64,000 nucleotides of DNA from Vulcanimicrobiota bacterium (GTDB lineage Bacteria > Vulcanimicrobiota > Vulcanimicrobiia > Vulcanimicrobiales > Vulcanimicrobiaceae): positions 239,438 to 303,437 of the forward strand of contig PLWS01000001.1 in the NCBI GenBank assembly GCA_003151115.1, given 5' to 3'. Positions 3,413-53,263 of the stretch are shown in pieces. The notes beneath the pieces were generated by a model. The model searched no databases, was not told the origin of the DNA, and saw nothing but the letters and a program-made list of their open reading frames with translations. Position numbers and translations under genes: made by a program. Every line of letters starts with the position of its first letter. Position 1 is the stretch's first letter.

Positions 3413-4760
3413 GCGAGTCTCCAATCAGTTTCGTACCGAGCGCCGCCGCTAAGTCGTTGAATTGCCTTTCGAAAATGTCGTACCCTTTGACGGTCATGGC
3501 GGCTAGGCCGATGCGCGACCCTTCCGGTCCCGGATCGACCCGTACAAACAGGCGCGCCGGCAACAGATAGAACGAGATCATCAATCCGGCGAGCAAGACG
3601 AAAGCGCCGATGCCGACCAGCGAAACGCCCGGATCGTGCGTATATTGAATGCCGCTGACGAGCAGGTAGCGCTCTGGCGTCACGCGCCAGCCGCCGCCGG
3701 CATCGATTGCGGCTTTCATCGGTATCAGGCCGGCACCCGCGGCTTGGCCGCTGTCGAAAATCTGCAAAAAGACTGCCGGATCGTTGATGCGCGGATCGGC
3801 TGAAGGCTGACCGCTCAGGCGATCGACGGTTGGAACGAATTGCGCAACCACGATGGACCGTTGCGTTCCCGGCAGGTCGATCTCGTCACCCGTTAGATAG
3901 TCTCGGTTCATGAGCGCGGGCACACGAACGCCGTCGTGCGTTACGCGGAAACGCATTGCGAAGCCGTAACTGGACTGGTAGTAGAGCACGCCGTCGACGT
4001 CGAGCGGATGATTGACGCGAATGGTCGCGGTGCGCGCGACACCGTCGCTGCCTGTGGCGGTGACGCGCGAAACATAATCGATCGGCTGATAGACCATGCC
4101 GCTCTTGGTGACGATGGGCTTGATCTTATAGGAGAAACCGTCGAGCCTGATCGACGTTTGCGTGTGCGGCACGGAGACGGTTTGGCCCGTGACGATCGCT
4201 TCGTCGCCCGAAAAACCCTTGGCCCAATAGATCGTCGTGCCCGCCGCGATAATGACGAAGCCCGCATGCGCGACCAGCACGCCGCGCCGCGCCCAGTTAT
4301 GTTTGTCGGCGAACGTCCACTCGACCCCGCCGAGTTCGCGCTTGCGAACGTTCCAGCCGCGCGCGCGAAAGAATGCTTCCATGCGATCGCGGATGCTTTC
4401 GGGATCGCCGACGACATCGAACGAAGCGTGCAGCGGAATCTTGTCGATCGCCACCGCCCGAAGCGGAGGCAAACGCGCCGGAATGACACGCTTGAATGTG
4501 CAGACCGTCAACGAAAGCAGAATCAATCCGATGATTCCGACGTAATATGGCGTGTGGTAGATGTTGTTGAAGTCGAGCCGCAGGATCAGCCGTGCGAGCG
4601 GCGCCGCATAGGAATCGAAATACGTCGCCGGATCTTTGCCCTGTGCGATAATAACGCCGACCAGCGTGAGCAGTCCCCACACGATAAAGAGCAGCACGGC
4701 GAACAAGACGTTTCCGAACGTGCGGATGAAATCGTCGTAGAGCTCCCGGACCGCCTGCAT
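3405..4760 (-). CDS. resB: Cytochrome c biogenesis protein ResB (Ccs1)
   Basis: This 451-residue membrane protein is the apocytochrome-binding partner of CcsA in system II cytochrome c maturation. It begins with a short cytoplasmic helix (MQAVRELYDDFIRTFGN) and a hydrophobic span. More spans follow near residues 65-90 and 115-150, then a large external domain of about 230 residues, and a final span before the C-terminal tail. This is the usual ResB layout. The ATG at 4758-4760 lies 5 bases after tatC; the frame stays open further upstream, but that stretch lies inside tatC. The end overlaps the ccsA start. Confidence 0.9.
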   Translation of the reverse strand: MQAVRELYDDFIRTFGNVLFAVLLFIVWGLLTLVGVIIAQGKDPATYFDSYAAPLARLILRLDFNNIYHTPYYVGIIGLILLSLTVCTFKRVIPARLPPLRAVAIDKIPLHASFDVVGDPESIRDRMEAFFRARGWNVRKRELGGVEWTFADKHNWARRGVLVAHAGFVIIAAGTTIYWAKGFSGDEAIVTGQTVSVPHTQTSIRLDGFSYKIKPIVTKSGMVYQPIDYVSRVTATGSDGVARTATIRVNHPLDVDGVLYYQSSYGFAMRFRVTHDGVRVPALMNRDYLTGDEIDLPGTQRSIVVAQFVPTVDRLSGQPSADPRINDPAVFLQIFDSGQAAGAGLIPMKAAIDAGGGWRVTPERYLLVSGIQYTHDPGVSLVGIGAFVLLAGLMISFYLLPARLFVRVDPGPEGSRIGLAAMTVKGYDIFERQFNDLAAALGTKLIGDSRG

Positions 4761-4765
4761 GCCTT

Positions 4766-5512
4766 TTAGTGTACTCCCGTGGCTTCCGCGTGCCACGACT
4801 TCTCGAGCAGAACGATGATCCACAGGCTGGCTTCGTAGAGGATATACATCGGCAACGCCATGAGTGCCATCGTGAGAGGGTTTCCGTCCGGGGCTGCGAT
4901 GGCGCCGAAGACGAAGAATCCGAAGAGAAAGTATCTGCGGTTTTTCTTCAGGAACGTCGAGTTGATGATTCCGATGCGCGCGAGCGCAATCATGATGATC
5001 GGCGTCTGAAAGATGAGCGCGAACGCCAAGAAGATCAGCAAGATGAAATTGATCGTTGATTCGATGCCGAACGTCGGCGTTGCGATATGGTTCGTGACGA
5101 GGATAAGCGCCTGGACGACGCGCGGAAGCACGACGAAGTGCGCGAACGCGATTCCCGCAAACGCCAGCAGAACCGACGGAGCGACGTAGACGTACACGAG
5201 CTTGCGCGTGCGCGGGTGAAATGCCGGCACGACGAACATCCACAGCTGATATAAGAGCACCGGCAGACCCAGCACGACGGCCGCATAGATCGAAAATTTG
5301 AACTCGGCCAGGATCGCGTCGGCGGGCCCGAACGCGTGCAGCTGCACGTTGTGAAAGTACGCGCTCTTGAGAAATTCGATGACGTAGGGTGAGGGGATGA
5401 AGAGAACGACGCCCAGCCCAAAAACGGTGACGAGCGAGATCAAGAGACGTTTACGGAGCTCCCGAAGGTGCTCCGTAAAGCTCATTTCCTTTTGATCCCA
5501 CGTTTCGGACAC
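4766..5512 (-). CDS. tatC: Sec-independent (twin-arginine) translocase TatC
   Basis: TatC is the receptor subunit that recognises twin-arginine signal peptides. The protein has up to 248 residues and six hydrophobic spans. Its N-terminal FTEHLRELRKRLL matches the conserved TatC opening helix, and FHPRTRKLVYVYV is the typical first cytoplasmic loop. Two starts are possible: GTG at 5510-5512, 4 nt after tatA, and ATG at 5483-5485, which begins MSFTEHL like many TatC proteins and follows AAAAGGAA. The genuine product may therefore be nine residues shorter. The Rieske protein encoded downstream is an obvious client. Confidence 0.95.
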   Translation of the reverse strand: MSETWDQKEMSFTEHLRELRKRLLISLVTVFGLGVVLFIPSPYVIEFLKSAYFHNVQLHAFGPADAILAEFKFSIYAAVVLGLPVLLYQLWMFVVPAFHPRTRKLVYVYVAPSVLLAFAGIAFAHFVVLPRVVQALILVTNHIATPTFGIESTINFILLIFLAFALIFQTPIIMIALARIGIINSTFLKKNRRYFLFGFFVFGAIAAPDGNPLTMALMALPMYILYEASLWIIVLLEKSWHAEATGVH

Positions 5513-5516
5513 GGCG

Positions 5517-5819
5517 TCAGCTGCTCAACGTTCCTTTGTCCGGCGTCGGCGGCGGGACGTTGGCGCCCGTGCCGTCGGCATTGTTTTGCGAGACGTTATC
5601 CATGACGTCGGCGCGCGCGGCTTCGGCCCGCAAGCGCGCGTCTTCGCGCGCTTTAGCAGCGGCCGCGTCGGCCTCGGCCTGTCCGACCATAAACTCTTTC
5701 TTGGCCGCGCCGGCGCTCCGCGCCAGCTTCGGCAGCTTCTCCGCTCCGAAGAGCAAGAGCCCCAGGCCAATCAGGATCATGATGATTTCCGGGCTCCCCA
5801 GGGCGAGCGTGACGTGCAT
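5517..5819 (-). CDS. tatA: Twin-arginine translocase subunit TatA/TatB family
   Basis: This 100-residue protein has one N-terminal membrane span (PEIIMILIGLGLLLFG), the FG-x-x-KLPKLAR hinge and an amphipathic helix, then a long charged Ala/Arg/Glu-rich tail. This is the TatA pore-forming or TatB pattern; the LP-KLAR hinge and short length favour TatA. The ATG is preceded by GGAGAG. It sits immediately upstream of tatC in the same operon. No separate tatB is visible, so this may be a minimal TatAC system. Confidence 0.92.
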   Translation of the reverse strand: MHVTLALGSPEIIMILIGLGLLLFGAEKLPKLARSAGAAKKEFMVGQAEADAAAAKAREDARLRAEAARADVMDNVSQNNADGTGANVPPPTPDKGTLSS

Positions 5820-5833
5820 AGGTTTTCTCTCCT

Positions 5834-6790
5834 TTAAAAGGCTTCTTCGAGCAATTCGCCGGCGAGCCGCTGCAGCTCGGCTTTCGCCGCGGTATCTTCG
5901 AGACCGTCGATCGCGTCTTCCGCGCGCCGGGAGTACTCGGCGATCTGCGCGCGCGTCTCTTCGACCGCGCCCGATTGCCTGATGCCCGCGATGACCGCGG
6001 CGGTGTTAGGCTCTCTTCCCGCATACAAACGTTCGACCATGCCCCCAAATTCTTGGCTGCCGTCCCGCAGGGCCAGAATTAACGGAATCGTCATCTTGCG
6101 CTCGGCGAGATCGTTTCCGACCGGTTTGCCGAGCGCGGCGGCGTCGGCCGTCACGTCGAGCAAGTCGTCGCGCATCTGAAACGCGATGCCATAGGCCAAG
6201 CCGAAAGCGCGCAGCGCCGCGACGTCCTGTGGTGGCGCGCCGCCTGCAATCGCTCCGCACTGCGCGGACGCCGCGAAGAGCGAAGCCGTTTTTCTCGCCA
6301 CGATAGCTATGTATGACTGCAGTGAAACGTTCAGATCGCCGAGCGACCGCAGCTGCAGCACTTCGCCGTCGCAGATTTCCGCCAGCGTCGCCGAGAGAAT
6401 ATTGGGTATCGGCGGCGCGTAAAATTGCGTGACGTTCTTGAAGATCCACGCAAAAAGATAATCTCCGGCCAGCACGCTGATGCGGTTTCCGTAATCGATC
6501 GCGGTTGCGTTGACGCCGCGCCGCGTCTGCGCGTTGTCGACGACGTCGTCGTGAATCAGCGTGGCGACGTGGATCAGCTCCATGTACGCCGCGAGCTGCA
6601 TGTGCCGCTCGGATTGCGTATCGTGCGTTTGCGCCGCCAGCAACGTGATGCGCGGACGCAGCCGTTTCCCGCCCGCGGCGAGCATCCGTTTCACCGCTTC
6701 AGTGATCAGCGGATTGTCGGTGGTGAAGCGCTCCCGGAAGAACGCCTCGATCTCGTCGTGCCGCTCGCCGGCGCGCGCGCTTTGAATCAT
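5834..6790 (-). CDS. Polyprenyl diphosphate synthase (quinone side chain)
   Basis: This 318-residue trans-prenyltransferase extends an allylic diphosphate with IPP, and with the adjacent ubiE probably makes the menaquinone side chain and head group. GGKRLRP (40-46), the first aspartate-rich motif DDVVD (81-85) followed by AQTRRG, and the second motif DDLLD (208-212) are all present. Both motifs are the DDxxD type of long-chain enzymes. Chain length cannot be read reliably. The ATG at 6788-6790 overlaps the ubiE stop by one base; longer in-frame extensions fall inside ubiE. Confidence 0.92.
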   Translation of the reverse strand: MIQSARAGERHDEIEAFFRERFTTDNPLITEAVKRMLAAGGKRLRPRITLLAAQTHDTQSERHMQLAAYMELIHVATLIHDDVVDNAQTRRGVNATAIDYGNRISVLAGDYLFAWIFKNVTQFYAPPIPNILSATLAEICDGEVLQLRSLGDLNVSLQSYIAIVARKTASLFAASAQCGAIAGGAPPQDVAALRAFGLAYGIAFQMRDDLLDVTADAAALGKPVGNDLAERKMTIPLILALRDGSQEFGGMVERLYAGREPNTAAVIAGIRQSGAVEETRAQIAEYSRRAEDAIDGLEDTAAKAELQRLAGELLEEAF

Positions 6791-40156: not shown

Positions 40157-40417
40157 TCACAACATCGTAGAAACGCTAATTTCTACTCCATCAGTTACTA
40201 GCGTGGCGGCGCCGTTTTCGTCCGTCCGGTAAACTCGCGCGCCGAAGCGTTGCAGCGTTTCGAGTGTTGAAATTGCGGGATGGCCGAAGAGATTATGGCG
40301 CCCGACGGAGATGATCGCGTACGCCGGATGCACCGCGGAGATGAACGCCGCCGTCGAGCCGTACGCGGATCCGTGGTGTCCGACCTTGAGGACGTCTCGG
40401 AGCGATTCCACCTGCAT
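40157..40417 (-). pseudogene. ComEC-like metallo-beta-lactamase C-terminal fragment (copy A)
   Basis: The readable 86 residues contain LKVGHHGSAYGSTAAFISAVHPAYAIISVGRHNLFGHP, the C-terminal part of the ComEC/Rec2 metallo-beta-lactamase domain. The upstream metal-binding strands and all membrane spans are missing. Compared with copy B (45265-45870), about 360 bases are deleted: both copies share GGTGGAATCGC at the 5' end and GTCCTCAAGGTCGG further in, but the middle is absent here. A short translated product is possible but unlikely to be functional. Confidence 0.75.
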
Positions 40418-40451
40418 GATCGCATAAAGAATTTAATGCGAGCTAGGACAG
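40404..40451. repeat. 48-bp direct repeat (copy A), junction of the ComEC-like fragment and gene X
   Basis: These 48 bases, starting GATTCCACCTGCATGATCGC, recur exactly at 45861-45908. In both places they join the truncated 5' end of the ComEC-like fragment to the 3' end of unknown gene X. The truncation junction was therefore formed once and then copied. Confidence 0.9.
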
Positions 40452-40453
40452 GG

Positions 40454-40582
40454 TCAAGAACCAAATGGCACGTTCGCGAGAGGAACCCAACTGAGATCAA
40501 TGTCCGGGGACCGCCAAGGATTCGTGCGCGGCTGGCTATCCAGCGCATCTTCCACGAGATGGGCAACTTTATTCAGAAAACG
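40454..40582 (-). pseudogene. 3' remnant of unknown gene X (copy A)
   Basis: On the minus strand the reading EDALDSQPRTNPWRSPDID followed by SWVPLAN matches EEALDSELRTNPWRFPDID...SWIPFAN of copy B (45890-46257). Only the last 40 or so codons are left, and the reading ends early because of a small shift near FGS. Upstream (40583 onwards) the sequence switches abruptly to the duplicated antiporter tail, which marks the duplication junction. Confidence 0.7.
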
Positions 40583-45264: not shown

Positions 45265-45870
45265 TCACCGTGTCAACGAGGTGGCCGTAACATTTAGTTT
45301 AGTAATGTGGCCGTCCGTGGTCACGGTTACAGCGCCGCTTTCGTCCGTTCGGTAGATCCGCACGCCGAAGCGCTGGAGAGTATCGAGCGTTGAAGACGCC
45401 GGGTGGCCGAAGAGATTATGCCGCCCGACCGAGATGATCGCGTACGCCGGGTGCACCGCACTTACGAACGCGGGCGTCGAGCTGTAGGCGGACCCGTGAT
45501 GTCCGACCTTGAGGACATTGGGACATTGGCGCGTAAATCGCTTCCCTCCGATAAGAACCGCTGCTCGGCTTCAGCGCCGGCGTCACCGGTGAAGAGCATG
45601 CGAAAGTTGCCGTACTGCAAGATGAAGGCAAGCGAGTTGTTGTTGATATCGTTTCGCGTGTGGCTGAGAAGCGGGAGAGAAGGGCCGATGAACGTCAGCG
45701 TGAGGCCGTCATCGGTTCGCCAGACAGTGCCCGCTCGCGGATAGACGATGGGTGTGCTGTCAGCTTTAGCGACTTGCAGCGCGTCATTGTACGCGAAGCC
45801 GGCGTAACGCTGGCCGCTGTCGGCGAATTCGCTTGTCGGAAAAACGCGAAGGACCGGGGCGATTCCACCT
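45265..45870 (-). pseudogene. ComEC-like metallo-beta-lactamase fragment (copy B), frameshifted
   Basis: Reading the minus strand from 45870 gives RYAGFAYNDALQ, GLTLTFIGPSLPLLSHTRNDINNNSLAF and MLFTGDAGAEAEQRFL, the ComEC metallo-beta-lactamase domain. A tandem duplication of 8 bases (AATGTCCC then AATGTCCTC, near 45520) shifts the frame just before LKVGHHGS; the remainder continues in another frame to 45265. The N-terminal membrane part is missing, as in copy A. This copy is longer than copy A and closer to the ancestor. Confidence 0.8.
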
Positions 45871-45908
45871 GCATGATCGCATAAAGAATTTAATGCGAGC
45901 TAGGACAG
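45861..45908. repeat. 48-bp direct repeat (copy B)
   Basis: This is identical to 40404-40451. Here it joins the 5' truncation of the longer ComEC-like fragment to the 3' end of the longer gene X copy, confirming that both copies descend from one already truncated arrangement. Confidence 0.9.
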
Positions 45909-46257
45909 GTCAAGAACCGTTTGGCCATATTTGCGAAGGGAATCCAACTGGTGTCAATATCCGGGAAGCGCCAAGGATTCGTGCGCAGTTCGCTGTCCAG
46001 CGCCTCTTCCAGCGTGTAGCGCTTTCCGCGAAGTAGTTTCCCGTAACCTTCACCATATTCTCTGAGCAACAAATCGACAAACGAGGGACCCGGCACAATC
46101 GCTCCCGATTCAGGCTCCGCTTAAAGCCCAGGGTTTTGAAACGCTCCGCTTCGTACGGGTACAGCGCGTGATGAAGATCGTTCAGAAGTCGGTCGCACGT
46201 CCTCTCATCCTCCCTGTCGAAGAGCTCTCCCAACGCATGTCTGATGAGCTCAACCAC
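45890..46257 (-). pseudogene. Unknown gene X (copy B), single frameshift
   Basis: One frame starts at ATG 46257 (MVELIRHALGELFDREDER...YPYEAERFKTLGF) and a second frame continues EPESGAIVPGPSFVDLLLREYGEGYG...TLEEALDSELRTNPWRF and SWIPFANMA to 45890. The frames join if one base is restored near TTTAAGCGG (about 46120), giving about 115 residues. No family is recognised. A remnant of its 3' end is seen at 40454-40582. Confidence 0.65.
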
Positions 46258-46278
46258 ACGGGACTATTCGGTAGCGGT

Positions 46279-46328
46279 GGACTGGCCGGGACCCCTGAGT
46301 TCGGGTTCGGAATCCCGTTGGGGTTACG
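46279..46328. repeat. tRNA 3'-end fragment, degenerate copy 1
   Basis: GGACTGGCCGGGACCCCTGA, then a TTCGGGTTCG-GAATCCCG T-arm-like piece and GTTGGGGTTACGA. Compared with copy 2 (49546-49595) it has an extra G in the T-loop and changes in the acceptor end (GTTACGA for GCTACCA). The terminator hairpin of copy 2 is absent. It forms the left edge of the first cassette. Confidence 0.75.
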
Positions 46329-46454
46329 ATCCAAGACCCCGCTTTTATAGAGTTCTTTTTTAATTCATTCTCGCTACCCCAACGTGAATGCGATGACGCT
46401 TGAACGTTACGCGCCACACAAGGGTCGCTAAGCGTTTGCTCGAAGTGCGCGGCG

Positions 46455-47177
46455 TTGTCGAAATTCATCCCCATACTCGTCGTGACACTGTATATTCTCG
46501 CACAAGGCGCTGCCTTTGCGGCCGAATGCCGGCCGCACCGCAGCGCATCGCTTCTGCTTGCGAAATCCGTAGGCGACGTATACAATCAACTCGCAAGCGA
46601 TGGCGACGAACTGCCGAACTCGTATTTTGCAAAATTGACAATCTTGGGATCCGCATACGCATATACGGTGCAAACGCACCGTAGCACGTACGATACACAG
46701 CATGCCAGCGCGAATACGCTTACGGGCGTCCATACAATCGCCGGGCCAACGATCTCAATTCCATGGTTCATAGCCACCGACGAAACCTCCGAAGCCCGGG
46801 CTGCACGTTGCCTCGGAGTTCTTGGCCTGTACGCCGGAGCCGGCATCGTGCGGACGTCCTCGAATTACGGCTATCCGCTTGGCTACGAGCATCTTCAAGC
46901 AGCGGGGATCGGGTTGGAACGCTTCGCCGATGCAAACCGACGCTTCGATCTCTTCGGAGCACTCTACTACTATCCCGCGGCGTCGGGCGTGTACGGTGGC
47001 ACGCGCCTTTCATTTACGATCGTAACGTTTGACGGCGGATTTCGTCTGCGGCTGGGTTCTTCAAATACCGGCTTAATTGTCGGACTGTATCAGGAAATGC
47101 GCTCGCTGCACCCGGGAACGCGCACGGGCCAGATGATTCGCGTCGCCCCGTACATCGGGCTGCAGCTTATGCGATAA
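46455..47177 (+). CDS. Secreted protein of unknown function
   Basis: The 240-residue product has a signal peptide (FIPILVVTLYILAQGAAFAA, cut before ECRPH), followed by a region with many Tyr, Gly and Ala residues and beta strands typical of small outer-membrane or porin-like proteins (GVLGLYAGAGIV, DLFGALYYYPAASGVYGGTRLSF, GFRLRLGSSNTGLIVGLYQEMRS, IRVAPYIGLQLMR). The C-terminal strand could be a barrel-closing strand, although Phe is not the last residue. The start is a TTG with no clear ribosome binding site. It lies inside the first tRNA-fragment-bounded cassette. Confidence 0.62.
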   Translation: MSKFIPILVVTLYILAQGAAFAAECRPHRSASLLLAKSVGDVYNQLASDGDELPNSYFAKLTILGSAYAYTVQTHRSTYDTQHASANTLTGVHTIAGPTISIPWFIATDETSEARAARCLGVLGLYAGAGIVRTSSNYGYPLGYEHLQAAGIGLERFADANRRFDLFGALYYYPAASGVYGGTRLSFTIVTFDGGFRLRLGSSNTGLIVGLYQEMRSLHPGTRTGQMIRVAPYIGLQLMR

Positions 47178-47179
47178 TC

Positions 47180-48862
47180 CTAAGGTTGGATACGGCCGAT
47201 CTTAGCATTATTGAATTCCGTGAACCACATGCCCCCGTCCGAACCGGCCGCGATACCCCGCACCGAAGCGTTTATTGGAAGGCTAGAGTACTCGGTTACC
47301 GTGCCGCCGGTTGTGATCCGGCCGATCCGGTTAACGGCGGTGCCCATAGTCTGTTCGGTGAACCAAAGGGCGCCGTCAGGACCGGCCGCGATACCATCCG
47401 CAGAAGTGCTCGCAGAAATCCCGGCAGAGTATTCGGTGATTGCTCCGGCGGTTGTAATTCGGCCGATTCGACCGACGTTCGTGGGCGCGCCGGTGAATTC
47501 TGTAAACCACAGGGCACCATCCGAACCAGACGCGATAAAACCTGGGGCGGCGCCGGCAGACATCCCGGCCGAGTACAGGGTGATTGTGCCAGTCGTCGTG
47601 ATCCGGCCGATTGCGTTGGAGACTGGGATAGCACAACTTTGAGTGAACCAAAGGGCACCGTCCGGGCCGGCCGTGATATCCACCGGCCCGCCTGAACAGT
47701 AGGGCCCGACCGTATATTCCGTGATTGTACCGCTAGTTGTTATCCGGCCGATTACATTGTTATGTGATTCCGTGAACCATAGCGCACCGTCCGGACCGGC
47801 CGCGATACGAAACGGCTGAGGACGCGGTAACTGCGTCATGCCTGCCGAGTATTCGGTGACGGCGCCACTGGTTGTGATGCGGCCGATCCGGGCGAGAGTG
47901 CTGTTGTTTTCAGTAAACCAGAGGGCACCGTCCGGACCGGCTGTGATGCCTGCCGGGATAGAGCCCGCGGAAATCCCAGTCGAATAAACAGTGACTGCGC
48001 CACTGGTCGTGATCCGAGCCACCCGGTCGTTGAACGTGGTGAACCAAAGGGCGCCATCCGGGCCGGCCGCGATATCGTCCGGATTGGTCGGAACCCCGCT
48101 CGCGTACTCCGTAATCGTACCGGTGGGAAGATTGACGGTCAGAGTCGCTTGGCCCGAGGTCGCGCCTGTGGCGTTTGCGGTAATCGTCGGACTGGAGATC
48201 GCAGCCCCGTTGTAGCTCAGCGTAATTCCCGATGTCGGCGCAGTGAGCGAACTCTGCGAGAGGTGCGTTGCGCCCGAGCTGTCCGAATCCGCAAGGTTGA
48301 CCGTAAGCGCGCTGCCGCTGGCATCGACGTAAACGCCGGGCGCGATGATCGTGTTGCCGTCCGCATCGAGCGCATTAACCGTGACGTTGACGGTGGTCGA
48401 CGTTCCGGAGGTGACGGTGCTCGGACTTACCACAACCGAGGTCGAGGTGACGACGCCGTTAAAGGTCACGCTGACGCTGTTGGCTTGATCGATCGCGATC
48501 GTTTGGGTCAGCGTTCCGGTCGAGAGCAAATTCCCGCCCGCGTTTTGCGCGTCGTAGAGTTTGACGGCGAACGTGTCGCTGCCGATCGGCGCTAAAACTT
48601 GCGCGCTGCAGCTGCTCGTACAGTTGACGACCGTCGGCGTACCGGCGCTTCCCCCGCTCGGCGTGACGGCGATCGACGCAGATTTCGTCGACGCCGAAAT
48701 GTATTTCGGGCTTATTCCACTCGAGCTGGGAACAACGATGTGGAACTCGACCGTTGCCATCCGCACTTGTCCGGACGTAGGCACTGCGCTACCACCGGAG
48801 CTACCGCAACCGGGCGCGAGAATCAGCAAACCGATGACAAAACTGCGGAGGAATATTTTCAT
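47180..48862 (-). CDS. Virginiamycin-B-lyase-like beta-propeller lipoprotein with N-terminal Ig-like domains
   Basis: The 560-residue protein has a signal peptide with Cys near residue 19 (LAPGCGSSGG), two Ig-like/adhesion-type beta domains (about 35-265), then seven repeats of about 42 residues with the core AAGPDGALWFTE...IGRITTSG-ITEYS. The repeats match Vgb (streptogramin lyase)-type propellers. In true Vgb lyases catalytic His/Glu residues lie in the blades; these are not evident, so a carbohydrate- or ligand-binding propeller is more likely. The ATG at 48860-48862 overlaps the upstream lipoprotein stop by one base (TGATG). Confidence 0.82.
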   Translation of the reverse strand: MKIFLRSFVIGLLILAPGCGSSGGSAVPTSGQVRMATVEFHIVVPSSSGISPKYISASTKSASIAVTPSGGSAGTPTVVNCTSSCSAQVLAPIGSDTFAVKLYDAQNAGGNLLSTGTLTQTIAIDQANSVSVTFNGVVTSTSVVVSPSTVTSGTSTTVNVTVNALDADGNTIIAPGVYVDASGSALTVNLADSDSSGATHLSQSSLTAPTSGITLSYNGAAISSPTITANATGATSGQATLTVNLPTGTITEYASGVPTNPDDIAAGPDGALWFTTFNDRVARITTSGAVTVYSTGISAGSIPAGITAGPDGALWFTENNSTLARIGRITTSGAVTEYSAGMTQLPRPQPFRIAAGPDGALWFTESHNNVIGRITTSGTITEYTVGPYCSGGPVDITAGPDGALWFTQSCAIPVSNAIGRITTTGTITLYSAGMSAGAAPGFIASGSDGALWFTEFTGAPTNVGRIGRITTAGAITEYSAGISASTSADGIAAGPDGALWFTEQTMGTAVNRIGRITTGGTVTEYSSLPINASVRGIAAGSDGGMWFTEFNNAKIGRIQP

Positions 48863-49392
48863 CACTGACCCCCTACCGTAGTGGTGGTGACATCGACGGT
48901 GAGCGTCGCGGTCTGCCCATTCCCTCCCGTGATTGTAAACGTACAATGTCCGGCCGCTACTGGCGTAATCGTGAACGACGCGCCGGTCGCCGGGGATGCC
49001 GTCACGATACCGCTGCATGAGTTCGTTTGCCCGGCCGCCGCAGTCGAAATGGTGAACGCTCCGCTGTAATTGCTCTGGGACGGGGTGACGGTCTGCGCGT
49101 TTGACGCGCCGGTTCCGAGGAACGAAATGCTCGACGAGGGCAGAGTGACGGATCCCGGCGTCGGGGTGGGCGTCGGGGTGGGCGTCGGTGTGGGCGTCGG
49201 TGTGGGCGTTGGCGTCGGTGTGGGCGTTGGCGTCGGTGTGGGCGTTGGCGTGGGCGTCGGCGTGGGCGTTGGTGTCGGCGACGCAGTGGGCGGAACAGCC
49301 GTCGCGTTCCCGCCCGAGCCGCTGCACTGGACCAACGTCACAGAAAAAGCCGCAAAAGCTACTAGGCTAAACAGCGAGCGCCCGAATTTCAT
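48862..49392 (-). CDS. Lipoprotein with a long Pro-Thr linker
   Basis: This 176-residue secreted lipoprotein has Cys near residue 23 ([10 protein letters not shown]), a 41-residue Pro-Thr dipeptide tract (39-79) and a C-terminal Ig-like domain of about 90 residues with two cysteines. The PT tract is a stiff, probably O-glycosylated spacer holding the Ig-like domain away from the membrane. It is coupled to the propeller gene downstream. Confidence 0.78.
49156..49278. repeat. Hexanucleotide minisatellite encoding (Pro-Thr)n
   Basis: The plus strand reads as variants of GTGGGC and GTCGGT/GTTGGC repeated about twenty times. On the minus strand this encodes alternating Pro and Thr. Such tracts change length by slippage in multiples of six bases without a frameshift, so linker length may vary between strains. 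Confidence 0.9.
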
Positions 49393-49545
49393 CAGCCCCC
49401 ACTCTCAGAAAGGCACGTTTAGCGACTGCGTACTCACAACCTTTTCGCTTTACCAACGTCGGCGATGTTAGCAGTCGCCGCTTCGGTTAAGTCTTTTAGG
49501 CGGTACTAGACAATTGTTGCGAGTCGGCGCCTAATGGGACGGTAG

Positions 49546-49645
49546 GGACTGGCCGGGACCCCTGTGTTCGGGTTCGAATCCCGTTGGGGCTACCAATAAG
49601 AGCTCGATTTCATCGAGCTCTTTCCTTATATATACCAAGTGATTG
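49546..49645. repeat. tRNA 3'-end fragment copy 2 with its terminator
   Basis: GGACTGGCCGGGACCCCTGT, then a T-arm-like TTCGGGTTCGAATCCCG, the acceptor 3' strand and CCA (TTGGGGCTACCA, ending at 49595), followed by the hairpin at 49600-49620. A matching 5' tRNA half is not found upstream, so this is a fragment rather than a gene. Together with copies 1 and 3 it divides the region into two cassettes, as expected for integration at the 3' end of a tRNA gene. Confidence 0.82.
49600..49623 (+). terminator. Terminator hairpin downstream of the tRNA fragment
   Basis: GAGCTCGAT, loop TTC and ATCGAGCTC form a perfect 9-bp stem followed by TTTCCTT. It follows the CCA end directly, as a tRNA gene terminator would. 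The equivalent in copy 3 (about 52058-52080) has two changes in the stem. Confidence 0.8.
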
Positions 49646-49699
49646 GCTCGCCATCTTACAGAATGACACATCGGCGAATCGGTCCCGGTTTTGCTGGCC

Positions 49700-51529
49700 T
49701 TACGGTGTAATCTTCCCGATCACGTTGGCTCTGGTTTCGGCAAACCAGAGGTTGCCGTCGGGGCCTGCGGCGATGCCTAGCACGAATGCCGGATTACCCG
49801 GAGGAACCCTCGGAACCCCATACGCGGTGGACAAACCGCTCGTGGTGATTCTCGTGATCGTGCCCGCCGAGTCGTCCGTAAACCAGAGGTTGCCGTCCGG
49901 CCCTGCGGCGATGCCGAACCCCACGTACACAAAAACCGGATACTGGGTAAACGAGCCGCTCGTGGTGATCTTCCCGATCCCGGAGCTACCGCTTCCGATA
50001 AACCAGAGGTTGCCGTCCGGACCTGCGGCGATGCCTTGCGGATACGAGTTGCTAATGGGAATCGCATATTCGGTGATCGAGCCGCTGGTAGTGATCTTTC
50101 CGATCTTATTGCCGTTGTTTTCGGTAAACCAGAGGTTGCCGTCCGGGCCTGCTGCGATGCCCCGCGGCGCCGCGCTCGCAGTCGGAATCACATACTCGGT
50201 AAACGCACCGCTCGTGGTGATCTCCCCGATCTTGTTGCCACCGCCTTCGGTAAACCACAGGTTGCCGTCCGGACCTGCGGCGATGCCTTGCGGGCTCGCG
50301 CTGGCCGTCGGAATCGTATACGCGGTGATCGAGCCGCTGGTAGTGATCTTTCCGATCTTGCTGCCGTCGGTAAACCACAGGTTGCCGTCCGGACCTGCGG
50401 CGATGCCGCCCGGGACGCCACCCGTCGGAATCACATATTCGGTGAACGTGCCGCCCGTGGTGATCTTCCCGATCTTGTTGGCGCTCTCTTCGGTAAACCA
50501 GAGGTTGCCGTCCGGGCCTGCGGCGATGCCGCGCGGCCCCGCGCTGGCCGTCGGAATCGGATACTCTACGATCGTTCCACTCGTAGGCTTGACCGGCGAG
50601 GAGTAAATACCGCCTGAGCTTCCGATGACATAGAGATGTGTGCTGTCGGTCGAGATGCTGACTCCGGCGCCGCTCTGAACGCTCCAACCGGGTGTGCTCA
50701 GATCGTAATAGTAGATATTATTGCCGTTGCTGTTCGCAGGATAGCCCAGAACGAAGACCCCGCCGATGGTCGTCGGCGCGATTGCTGACGCGCTCCCGGG
50801 GAGCTGCACGAAACTGTTATCCGGATTCTTGTAATAGATGCTGCCGATGGAATTGAGAACATACAAACCATTCGCCGAAACGGTTCCATTGGAAAGCGTA
50901 TAGCTATTCGGATCCCATGACGCAGCGATCCGCACGCCGGCACCCGGCACTTGCGACCAAGTTCCGCTCACGTTGTGCCAGATCGCTTGATCGCTGCCGG
51001 CCGAATTGCCGTTGGAGAGCACATAGATCGAGCCGTCTGAAGCAGCGGTGATGTCGCTGCATCCGCCGCCCAGCCCGGTCCATGTTCCGCCGCTATACGA
51101 GTAAGCTCCGCCGCCGGAGTTGATCGCGTAGAGCGTGCCGTCGGGCGCAACCGAAAGCCGCGTGGCCATTCCGGAGATATTGGTCCACGTTCCGCCGACA
51201 TAATGCCAGATATACTTATCGGAACCGGCAGGCGCGGTAGAGAGCACCCAGAGCGAACCGTCGGGAGCCGCGGCGGCATAACTAGCTGCGCCAGGAATCT
51301 GCGTCCAACTCGCGCCTTGAATTGCACTTTGCGGTTTTACGGCCATGACGCTGGCCGGAAGAATTGCGGTGTGCGCCATCGGCGCAGGTGCGATCGAGCC
51401 AGGTGAAACCGACTGCGGCGTACCGAGCATGATGCCGCCGGTCTGCGGGGTCATATGCCTCGCACCCGAGCATCCCGCCAGGACGACGGTAAACGCAAGT
51501 GCGGAGAATAAAAAAGAACGAAAGCTCAT
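49700..51529 (-). CDS. Two-propeller lipoprotein (tectonin-like plus Vgb-like repeats)
   Basis: The 609-residue protein has a signal peptide with lipobox VVLAGC (near residue 20). A first set of repeats (about 65-300) reads WTQIPGAASYAAAAPDGSLWVLS and TWTNISGMATRLSVAPDGTLYAI, like tectonin (TECPR) blades. A second propeller (about 310-609) has seven repeats with AAGPDGNLWFTE...IGKITTSG. It is the only gene of the second cassette (49.6-52.0 kb), transcribed toward the copy 2 repeat. The protein is probably a surface-exposed sugar- or peptide-binding protein. Confidence 0.8.
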   Translation of the reverse strand: MSFRSFLFSALAFTVVLAGCSGARHMTPQTGGIMLGTPQSVSPGSIAPAPMAHTAILPASVMAVKPQSAIQGASWTQIPGAASYAAAAPDGSLWVLSTAPAGSDKYIWHYVGGTWTNISGMATRLSVAPDGTLYAINSGGGAYSYSGGTWTGLGGGCSDITAASDGSIYVLSNGNSAGSDQAIWHNVSGTWSQVPGAGVRIAASWDPNSYTLSNGTVSANGLYVLNSIGSIYYKNPDNSFVQLPGSASAIAPTTIGGVFVLGYPANSNGNNIYYYDLSTPGWSVQSGAGVSISTDSTHLYVIGSSGGIYSSPVKPTSGTIVEYPIPTASAGPRGIAAGPDGNLWFTEESANKIGKITTGGTFTEYVIPTGGVPGGIAAGPDGNLWFTDGSKIGKITTSGSITAYTIPTASASPQGIAAGPDGNLWFTEGGGNKIGEITTSGAFTEYVIPTASAAPRGIAAGPDGNLWFTENNGNKIGKITTSGSITEYAIPISNSYPQGIAAGPDGNLWFIGSGSSGIGKITTSGSFTQYPVFVYVGFGIAAGPDGNLWFTDDSAGTITRITTSGLSTAYGVPRVPPGNPAFVLGIAAGPDGNLWFAETRANVIGKITP

Positions 51530-52279
51530 AACCGCTCCAAAGCAGCGCGCGAGCCAGTCGAACGCTTCAGTTGGCCCTTCCGGCGCCGAAGATGCGTGAA
51601 TCTCATGAATGAATGCCTCCGTTGTCGATCTCACGCTATGACCGCATCGAGAAGAAGTTGAGAACATCCGTGCGCGAGCCGCGTTGGGACACGGGCTCAC
51701 CCAGTCGAGGGTCGGCTGGAGCCTGCTTTCCAGGCGGACGCATTCGTGCTGGGATACTACACAAGGGCGCGCAAACGTCCGGTGCGCATGCCGACTGGGA
51801 CAGCCACCCTGATGAACCTAGTGAAGCCGACATCGCGGAAGCAATGCAGAATCCATCGACTGAAAACGATAGCTCCAGATTGCGCCGGTTGAACGCGAGC
51901 TGACGGGCTTTCTACTTCCCCTTCTACTTACAGGCTATAACGTATGGTAATCCATGGTAATCGTAAGGATTGATTATGCGGTCTTCAGGAAGCCCAATCC
52001 ATATGAATGCCTATCAATAAGCCAACGCATTCGAATCCCGTTGGGGCTACCAATAACAGCTCGATTGCATCGAACTCTTTCCTTATAAATACACGAAGTG
52101 ATTGAGCCGTCACCTTAAGATTGACACGTCCGCGACGGTCGCCGTGAGATTACTGCTCACATAATAGGGCATTTTGAAAAGGGGCGAGACCGCGGCGTTT
52201 CAAGGCGCGAGGGCCGCGTCTTAAACGATATAGGGATCGCACGCGCTGCCTTACTTCAGGCTGAGGTAGGTCATTTGGT
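51530..52279. other. 750 bases without a confident gene; carries tRNA-fragment copy 3
   Basis: A plus-strand frame at 51613-51903 lacks a ribosome binding site and recognisable features and is not accepted as a gene. The stretch includes copy 3 of the tRNA 3' fragment. Between 51910 and 52020 the DNA is AT-rich with a short repeated TATGGTAATC (51944 and 51953). The rest shows nothing recognisable. Confidence 0.5.
52030..52099. repeat. tRNA 3'-end fragment copy 3 with terminator-like hairpin
   Basis: It shares TTCGAATCCCGTTGGGGCTA plus CCAATAA with copy 2. It then has an AGCTCGATTGCATCGAACTC hairpin-like piece with two changes and TTTCCTTATA, and continues similar through the ACACGAAGTGATTG stretch. 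Unlike copy 2 it lacks the GGACTGGCCGGGACCCCTG lead. It is the right edge of the second cassette. Confidence 0.8.
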
Positions 52280-53263
52280 CTAACCGGATGGTGGTCGTTT
52301 AGATACTGTCCTCCGGAGAACGCGCAAGGTGTCTTGACAGCCGTAGAGCGTGGGAAGCGAGACGACATCTGAAACGCGCCAATCCGTGTCGAGCATTTCG
52401 TAGAATCTAGTATCGCCGGTCATTCCGGCCTGCAATTCGCCCCCGTAAATCAAAATGTCGCCCTTAAAACGCCGAAGTGCAGTAGACGCCATAACGTCGT
52501 CGTGAGGCGGCCAAATGAAAAGCAGACTGTTACAGGTACTATCACGCAAGGCTTCGTAGGAGCCAATTCGGATATCCGTCCATGCGGTAACCCCATATTT
52601 ATATTCATACCCTAGGTTCTTCCAAAAACGATTCTTACCGAGCCCGATTGGCGAACGATCCACGCAGTCGACGTACAGACCTCGCTTGCGAAGCAGATAA
52701 CTCCAATAGCCGTTTCCTGAGCCGAAGTCGATTAGACCCGATTTGGAGTTTTTCGCAATAGTATCCAGAGCTTCGGCGGTGGGAATTGCGAAACCGTAAC
52801 GCGCGCGAAATTCCGCTCGAGCGTTGTGGATGCGGGACACAGGAACTTGGGACAGAAATGTATGCGCATCATTTTCGATTTTTTCCGCCAAAGATCCGGG
52901 TGCTATTCCTTCGGGTCGATGATATGCGTAATCGACGGTGCGCGCGTTGAATGTCCGTCGTTTTCCGGAAACTATCGCAGCCCTTTCTTGCTTCAAGAAT
53001 TCTGTCATTGCGGGAATGATTTCTTCGGCGAGGACCATTCTAGTCGTTAGCAATATTTTTGCTTGAGCAGCTTGCAACAGCTGATTCATATCACTATTGT
53101 GAAGGGCCTCAGAGCACCGTGCACAGATAAGCCACTCGATAGCCCGTCCTTTCTTCCTGCCTTCAGGGGACTGGATTTCAACAGACGGAGATTCATAACG
53201 AGTATTTGGTTCGAATACACCACACAAGTCACATTTAACAAGCGCGATATCCAAATAGTTCAT
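52280..53263 (-). CDS. Methyltransferase-like protein with an N-terminal zinc-knuckle-like motif
   Basis: The 327-residue protein starts MNYLDIALVKCDLCGVF; CDLC and, about 40 residues later, CARC could bind one zinc. A helical section follows, and from about residue 200 a Rossmann-like SAM-binding segment GLIDFGSGNGYWSYLLRKRG, then VDCVDRSP and LLFIWPPHDD. This suggests a SAM-dependent methyltransferase acting on an unknown substrate. The ATG at 53261-53263 has AGGGTG upstream. A longer form starting 33 codons earlier lacks such a site. It lies next to the tRNA-fragment copy 3 and looks lower in GC, so it may be acquired. Confidence 0.65.
   Translation of the reverse strand: MNYLDIALVKCDLCGVFEPNTRYESPSVEIQSPEGRKKGRAIEWLICARCSEALHNSDMNQLLQAAQAKILLTTRMVLAEEIIPAMTEFLKQERAAIVSGKRRTFNARTVDYAYHRPEGIAPGSLAEKIENDAHTFLSQVPVSRIHNARAEFRARYGFAIPTAEALDTIAKNSKSGLIDFGSGNGYWSYLLRKRGLYVDCVDRSPIGLGKNRFWKNLGYEYKYGVTAWTDIRIGSYEALRDSTCNSLLFIWPPHDDVMASTALRRFKGDILIYGGELQAGMTGDTRFYEMLDTDWRVSDVVSLPTLYGCQDTLRVLRRTVSKRPPSG

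Follow-up and report, generated by a model that had tools for sequence, protein, structure and literature searches.

Head-to-tail cassette arrays between copies of a tRNA-Glu 3' end in a genus of Vulcanimicrobiota

How do small groups of genes come to lie between copies of a tRNA 3' end at a place where neither a tRNA gene nor a recombinase is visible? This question is raised by a 64,000-nucleotide stretch from a Vulcanimicrobiota bacterium (contig PLWS01000001.1 of assembly GCA_003151115.1, positions 239,438 to 303,437; hereafter the window, numbered from its first letter), in which three direct repeats bound two short cassettes between positions 46306 and 52052. Having compared these repeats with the rest of the genome and with its relatives, we conclude that the repeat cores are very probably attachment sites of integrative elements, whose tyrosine integrases were aimed at the 3' end of tRNA-Glu genes, and that the arrays probably grew by accretion and later lost most of their integrases. 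Genomes, contigs and compared loci are cited by G, C and L numbers; the genome of the window is G000 and its contig C5.

Results

Repeats matching a tRNA-Glu 3' end form head-to-tail arrays

Firstly, we identified the tRNA gene behind the repeats. Apart from the last bases, their sequence is that of the 3' end of the glutamate tRNA(CTC) gene, which the genome carries intact on a different contig, downstream of tRNA-Gln (G000:C8:16555-16627). The bases following CTA differ among the copies, and the common core is therefore about 20 bp long, TTCGAATCCCGTTGGGGCTA. In a second tRNA-Glu gene (TTC; C3:9327-9401), this end differs by two bases. With up to three mismatches allowed, a search of the 2.56-Mb genome gave 18 copies of the 23-base tRNA end and none of the reversed pattern, taken as a control. 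The three tRNA-derived repeats claimed by an initial annotation of the window are all present (C5:285744, 289010 and 291467), and the genome search that it proposed yielded both the intact gene, tRNA-Glu(CTC) on C8, and the further copies. Other members of the genus carry 12 (G006), 5 (G002), 3 (G005), 2 (G003) and 1 (G004) copies, and G001 carries 37, this last genome being a draft (120 contigs, with many of the cores on contigs of 10-100 kb), so that some of its small array contigs may be mis-binned.

Secondly, we mapped the copies. Each of the two tRNA-Glu genes heads one array, the cores following head to tail downstream. Starting from tRNA-Glu(CTC), cores lie on one strand at C8:16574, 12827, 10399, 9899, 6252 and 1614, up to the contig end, and continue on the same strand at C4:379331, 378166, 364459, 362431 and 355800; the join of C8 to C4 is inferred across a contig gap. 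From tRNA-Glu(TTC), they lie at C3:9349, 3041 and 772, again up to the contig end, and at C6:1477. An intact tRNA, the mark of a tRNA-targeted island, stands at the array end on C8 (CTC) and C3 (TTC) and is missing from the window array. Two further cores are alone (C6:619660 and C1:177056). Throughout the genus, the contigs that carry several cores have all of them on a single strand (20 of 20), and the 53 closed intervals between cores have a median length of 2.0 kb (quartiles 0.9 and 3.3 kb); most cassettes measure 0.2-6 kb, the shortest 0.2-0.5 kb.

Different elements meet at the cores, with integrases or remnants beside some

Thirdly, we compared the sequences that precede the cores, referred to as right ends. 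They fall into family A (20 sites), family B (17 sites) and several smaller families, besides the intact tRNAs, and each is followed by the core. Since several unrelated families precede the cores, these are junctions of different elements with one common target. The single growing cassette offered initially as an alternative thus gives way to several element families, with about seven kinds of right end, that have one core in common. In type B, about 155 nt upstream of the core are strongly conserved and contain repeated GGTAATCCATGG-like motifs; the repeated motifs in right ends are probably integrase arm sites. A sequence model of type B gave 18 matches, spread over five of the seven genus members, whereas 34 other genomes had none. 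At the left ends, 19 sites have a terminator-like hairpin such as follows tRNA-Glu, which fits an element that must rebuild the tRNA 3' end together with its terminator. Neither type A nor type B ends have an exact match among viral contigs.

A profile search of this genome with PF00589 gave five matches: C2:53847, which is the strongest and is Xer-like by size and score, C6:622161, C1:57685, which adjoins a tRNA-SeC prediction, C1:1642, and a remnant on C8. The remnant is C-terminal, 50 codons long, lies about 95 bp after a core and is directed at it. The same placement is found in G006:C32 (where the remnant is 98% identical to that of C8), in G001:C106, C23 and C10, and in G014:C1, while longer or intact frames are likewise placed in other genera, in G009:C55 (413 codons) and G020:C18. 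These core-adjacent integrases form at least two groups by similarity, and integrases of these families presumably built the arrays. When the coordinates of profile matches and of intervals were compared, 46 of the 53 genus intervals had no PF00589 match, 6 held remnants only, and one (21 kb, in G002) held full-length frames. All five matches of the window's own genome lie outside the window, where a tRNA search found no intact tRNA either. The absence of an integrase noted at first is therefore correct for the window and does not extend to the system: sister arrays retain remnants, and other genera have intact genes.

For the role of helper, the integrase at C6:622161 was weighed and set aside: a tRNA-Asn 3'-end repeat adjoins it, so it probably targets a tRNA-Asn gene. 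At this second target (L022 5612-11570, on G000:C6), a repeat of the tRNA-Asn 3' part stands 5.9 kb further downstream. It adjoins a tyrosine integrase frame of 389 codons, and the DNA between the two tRNA-Asn parts contains a tRNA-Glu core with a type C end. The one integrase relative on a viral contig (54%) is encoded by the IMG/VR contig IMGVR_UViG_3300035704_000306 (L206); about 90 bp separate its 3' end from a core with one mismatch. On this contig, filed as viral, integrase, core and a beta-propeller gene are adjacent (4467-6594); no phage structural gene was found among ten open reading frames scanned.

Evidence of insertion at tRNA-Glu and of exchange between genomes

The gene order nucleotidyltransferase, tRNA-Gln, tRNA-Glu is conserved. 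On G002:C2, genes about 4.4 kb past the tRNA are 94% and 91% identical to genes past the last core on G000:C4, so that G000 (C8 and C4) contains about 49 kb or more of extra DNA, with 11 cores including that of the tRNA. We call the G002 site nearly unfilled because its 4.4 kb contain three other genes. The comparison with relatives for an empty site, proposed in the initial annotation, thus found one that is nearly, not strictly, unfilled; judged from the alignments, it supports insertion. Two marks of a tRNA-targeted island are present here, namely a tRNA 3' end that recurs as a direct repeat on the far side and extra DNA relative to the nearly unfilled site. The proposal of repeated integration at a tRNA gene is supported by the tRNA itself, by this site and by the integrases or remnants that abut other cores of the same family, and it falls short in that the window array is not at the tRNA.

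Around the tRNA pair, two further observations were made. The tRNA-Glu(CTC) genes of G006 (L113 1492-1567) and G002 (L118 7627-7699) have another sequence, GCCGGGTTCTCAACTCGG...ACCGGTTCGAATCCGG, from the anticodon arm onwards up to the 3' end; it looks as if the entire 3' half had been exchanged for that of an element. In several genomes, related HNH-domain genes adjoin the tRNA-Gln/tRNA-Glu pair, on one side or the other (L114 6588-7611, L113 747-1520, L101 2088-2477 and L124 7522-8037).

A recent exchange was found between two species, represented by G000 and G006. The cassette C8:1592-6252 (4.64 kb) is 99.2-99.3% identical to G006:C32:16084-20747, and on both sides the identity ends at the cores, while the orthologues flanking it are only 83.5-86% identical. 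In both copies the integrase is already the 50-codon remnant. Among 99 genomes of the family, the whole cassette was found in G000 and G006 only. Other cassettes are shared in changed order, at 97, 95 and 94% identity.

We regard repeated insertion by elements with tRNA-Glu-specific tyrosine integrases, with reuse of the cores, as most likely. Such an element would insert at the tRNA-Glu 3' end through an attachment core of about 20 bp, rebuild the 3' end and terminator of the tRNA on its left and leave a core on its right. This right-hand core would be reused by the next element, and different elements would stack head to tail (accretion). Loss of the integrase from most elements would leave small cargo cassettes between two cores, similar to cis-mobilizable elements (CIMEs). 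Some cassettes may still move, either with an integrase supplied in trans or by accretion with a functional neighbour. Four points weigh against this account: no recombination event was seen; the search of this genome gave no intact integrase for tRNA-Glu, though contig gaps at the arrays could conceal one; the G002 site is not strictly empty, with 4.4 kb and three genes between tRNA and conserved flank; and the window array has no adjoining tRNA and no recognisable left core.

The array in the window

The array in the window consists of the following features.

45309..45878, minus strand: truncated gene, putatively comEC-like, that borders the array on the left; homology with five loci in relatives ends at 45878-45880
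46255..46305, plus strand: type A right-end remnant before copy 1, 88-96% identical to right ends in L021, L094, L096, L099 and others
46306..46329, plus strand: core copy 1, a degenerate tRNA-Glu 3' end, TTCGGAATCCCGTTGGGGTTACGA, with one inserted G and CTACCA altered
46330..49572, plus strand: cassette 1, three genes, the interval from core 1 to core 2
46455..47177, plus strand: secreted protein of 240 aa, first gene of cassette 1, sharing 67% of its amino acids with an array protein of G001 and 57% with a protein of G009; no Pfam match
47180..48865, minus strand: Vgb-family lipoprotein of cassette 1 (PF24684, E=1.8e-118)
48862..49392, minus strand: lipoprotein-like protein with PT repeats, cassette 1, from the list of open reading frames; no Pfam match
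49539..49572, plus strand: short type A right-end remnant before copy 2, 93.6% identical to L096 over 49540-49633, core included
49573..49595, plus strand: core copy 2, a 23-base exact match, TTCGAATCCCGTTGGGGCTACCA
49600..49625, plus strand: terminator-like hairpin of an element's left end, also found after the intact tRNA-Glu(CTC) at C8 and at 17 other sites
49700..51529, minus strand: Vgb-family lipoprotein, sole gene of cassette 2 (PF24684, E=1.3e-116, query extended to 51538)
51871..52029, plus strand: type B right end before copy 3 (model R1, E=9.2e-45 at G000:C5:291314-291489), 84% identical to the C4:379331 site
52030..52052, plus strand: core copy 3, a 23-base exact match, TTCGAATCCCGTTGGGGCTACCA
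52053..52142, plus strand: left end of the next element, broken off at 52142; 51906-52142 is 88% identical to G006 L111 11423-11181, and the identity ends there

The intervals hold three genes and then one gene, as first described, and copies 2 and 3 do have the hairpin and its flank in common (94% over 63 nt after the core). Copies 1 and 2 are also alike upstream of the core, over about 35-50 bases (84% over 44 nt), a likeness that the initial annotation did not use; both belong to type A and copy 3 to type B. Cassette 1 has a relative in G001:C74, where the first gene is followed by a similar lipoprotein start and then by a type A end, and its first gene is also present in an array of another genus (G009:C55, 57% amino-acid identity). 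The Vgb gene of cassette 2 has relatives in the C4 and C3 arrays and in G006:C32. An Rfam scan of 45500-52800 gave a sub-threshold small RNA match only.

This piece is probably an old, decayed array fragment, lying beside a truncated comEC-like gene and not beside a tRNA; we call it old because core copy 1 has degenerated and about 35-50 nt are left of the type A ends. We lean slightly towards the view that ordinary rearrangement brought it from a tRNA-Glu array, and that it did not integrate at its present spot. A tRNA is absent nearby, the left neighbour is a truncated gene (the comEC-like frame in L191 continues about 1 kb beyond the break), the right end breaks off at 52142, type A ends are shortened, and five homologous stretches from relatives (L189-L193) have no core at the corresponding place. 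Against this, a G001 array edge lies in the same antiporter neighbourhood (C102:58, onward on C67), which could mark an old secondary integration site.

The comEC-like flank itself is partly duplicated about 5.4 kb apart (40398-40554 and 45855-46011, 81-85% identical in three blocks). A sequence of 60-65 bp, with the palindrome TCGCATAAAGAATTTAATGCGA as its beginning, has three copies in this genome and one in G006 (window 40420 and 45877, L021 10208-10237, L111 11155-11184), near cores or in the comEC-like flank. We considered the palindrome at 45877 as a dif-like or circle-junction site, given its position near cores in C8 and G006, and rejected this: it also stands at 40420, inside the duplicated flank, and is therefore no circle-junction marker.

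Do cassettes without an integrase still move?

Mobilisation of cassettes in trans is plausible. That the arrays would work in an integron-like way, cassettes without integrase being excised and inserted at the tRNA-end cores by integrases of other elements, is a tentative reading that we consider rather unlikely. It would account for the 4.64-kb cassette, which at 99.2% identity between G000 and G006 has the integrase remnant only and cores as both boundaries, for cassettes down to 0.2-0.5 kb, for the 46 of 53 intervals without an integrase match, and for a core common to several end families. However, this single case could also result from transfer of a longer piece, through accretion with a functional neighbour, or from homologous recombination and later changes at the sides, and a helper integrase for tRNA-Glu was not found in this genome. 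Its full form, a tRNA-based cassette system in which integrases of several families move cassettes singly in trans and the arrays function as integrons do, seems to us more doubtful still. Tandem duplication or homologous recombination between short repeats, with no site-specific recombinase, is very improbable: the cores are themselves repeats and the window has a duplicated flank, but the intervals are unlike in content and ends, the core is just about 20 bp, the recent transfer has its boundaries at the core, and integrase remnants stand at cores.

Cargo of the arrays

Each of the two window intervals does contain one PF24684 gene, as the initial annotation had stressed; this is no general rule of the arrays. 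By a hand count in which paralogues are not independent, the arrays, about 2.2% of the genome, contain about 8 of its 18 Vgb-family genes. There are no Vgb matches in the five intervals of the C8 array, and G001, the genome richest in cores, has two Vgb genes only (four matches). Vgb lipoproteins are recurrent cargo of the lineage, not a defining part of the system. On C1 (L025 6828-9057), about 20 bp separate the end of a Vgb-like lipoprotein gene from a variant core whose type B end is partial; tRNA-Ala(CGC) is about 250 bp away.

Other array cargo includes a Na/H exchanger, a multicopper oxidase, an O-methyltransferase, a DUF488 protein, a sigma factor and a cyclase-TPR protein. On G000:C4, the cargo of a core-bounded interval of 13.7 kb includes two genes of the HGD-D family (benzoyl-CoA reductase-like) together with a zinc dehydrogenase (L020 7509-11831), and may serve anaerobic aromatic degradation.

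Discussion

Structures of this kind are already known. In Dehalococcoides, ssrA islands lie in tandem between 20-bp repeats of the RNA gene 3' end, with integration genes at the left end; 15 of 31 lack the integration module, and a cargo family recurs (PMC3146451). The arrays described here resemble them in the tandem islands between RNA-gene 3'-end repeats, the frequent lack of integration genes and the recurrent cargo; the ssrA islands differ in their tmRNA target and CcrB-like serine recombinase, whereas here we find tyrosine integrases, two tRNA-Glu genes, several end families and cassettes with a median of 2 kb. The additive flexible genomic island of Methylophilaceae has repeats of the last 20 nt of tRNA-Lys and islands of 330 bp to 42 kb, with genes mostly of unknown function (PMC10872708); the recurring tRNA 3'-end repeats are alike, the phylum and the tRNA are not, and its description, as far as consulted, mentions neither end families nor integrase remnants. 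In CIME accretion, decayed elements retain their attachment sites and are stacked in tandem by later integrations (PMC5704250). This typically involves one or two elements, while up to 37 cores per genome are found here; 46 of the 53 genus intervals have cores on both sides and no PF00589 match, transfer genes not having been searched for. In fGI1 of Alteromonas, a conserved tRNA is the insertion target for successive cassettes (PMC4119200), which are large (metal resistance, hydrogenase), whereas those of the present arrays are mostly 0.2-6 kb.

Chromosomal integrons also have a row of small head-to-tail cassettes without a recombinase of their own, but their sites are attC hairpins and those of the present arrays are tRNA 3' ends, and no array-side integrase is common to all arrays. 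We rejected membership among the integrons because the repeated sites are tRNA-Glu 3' ends and not attC-type sites. As for IntI at an array end, there is no integrase beside the first core in G000 and only a remnant in the arrays, the IntI-specific patch not having been searched for separately. One literature search gave no report of such arrays in Candidatus Eremiobacterota, the group to which the host belongs. What is unusual here is the density of the arrays, the integron-like size of the cassettes and the near absence of integrases.

The arrays are one of the main places where this uncultured phylum gains genes, and the 20-bp core, together with the type A and type B ends, is a sequence handle for locating the variable genes of these bacteria. 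The integrase-less cassette, 99.2% identical in two genomes and with cores as its boundaries, is a clean natural case in which to examine whether tRNA-end cassettes move with no recombinase of their own.

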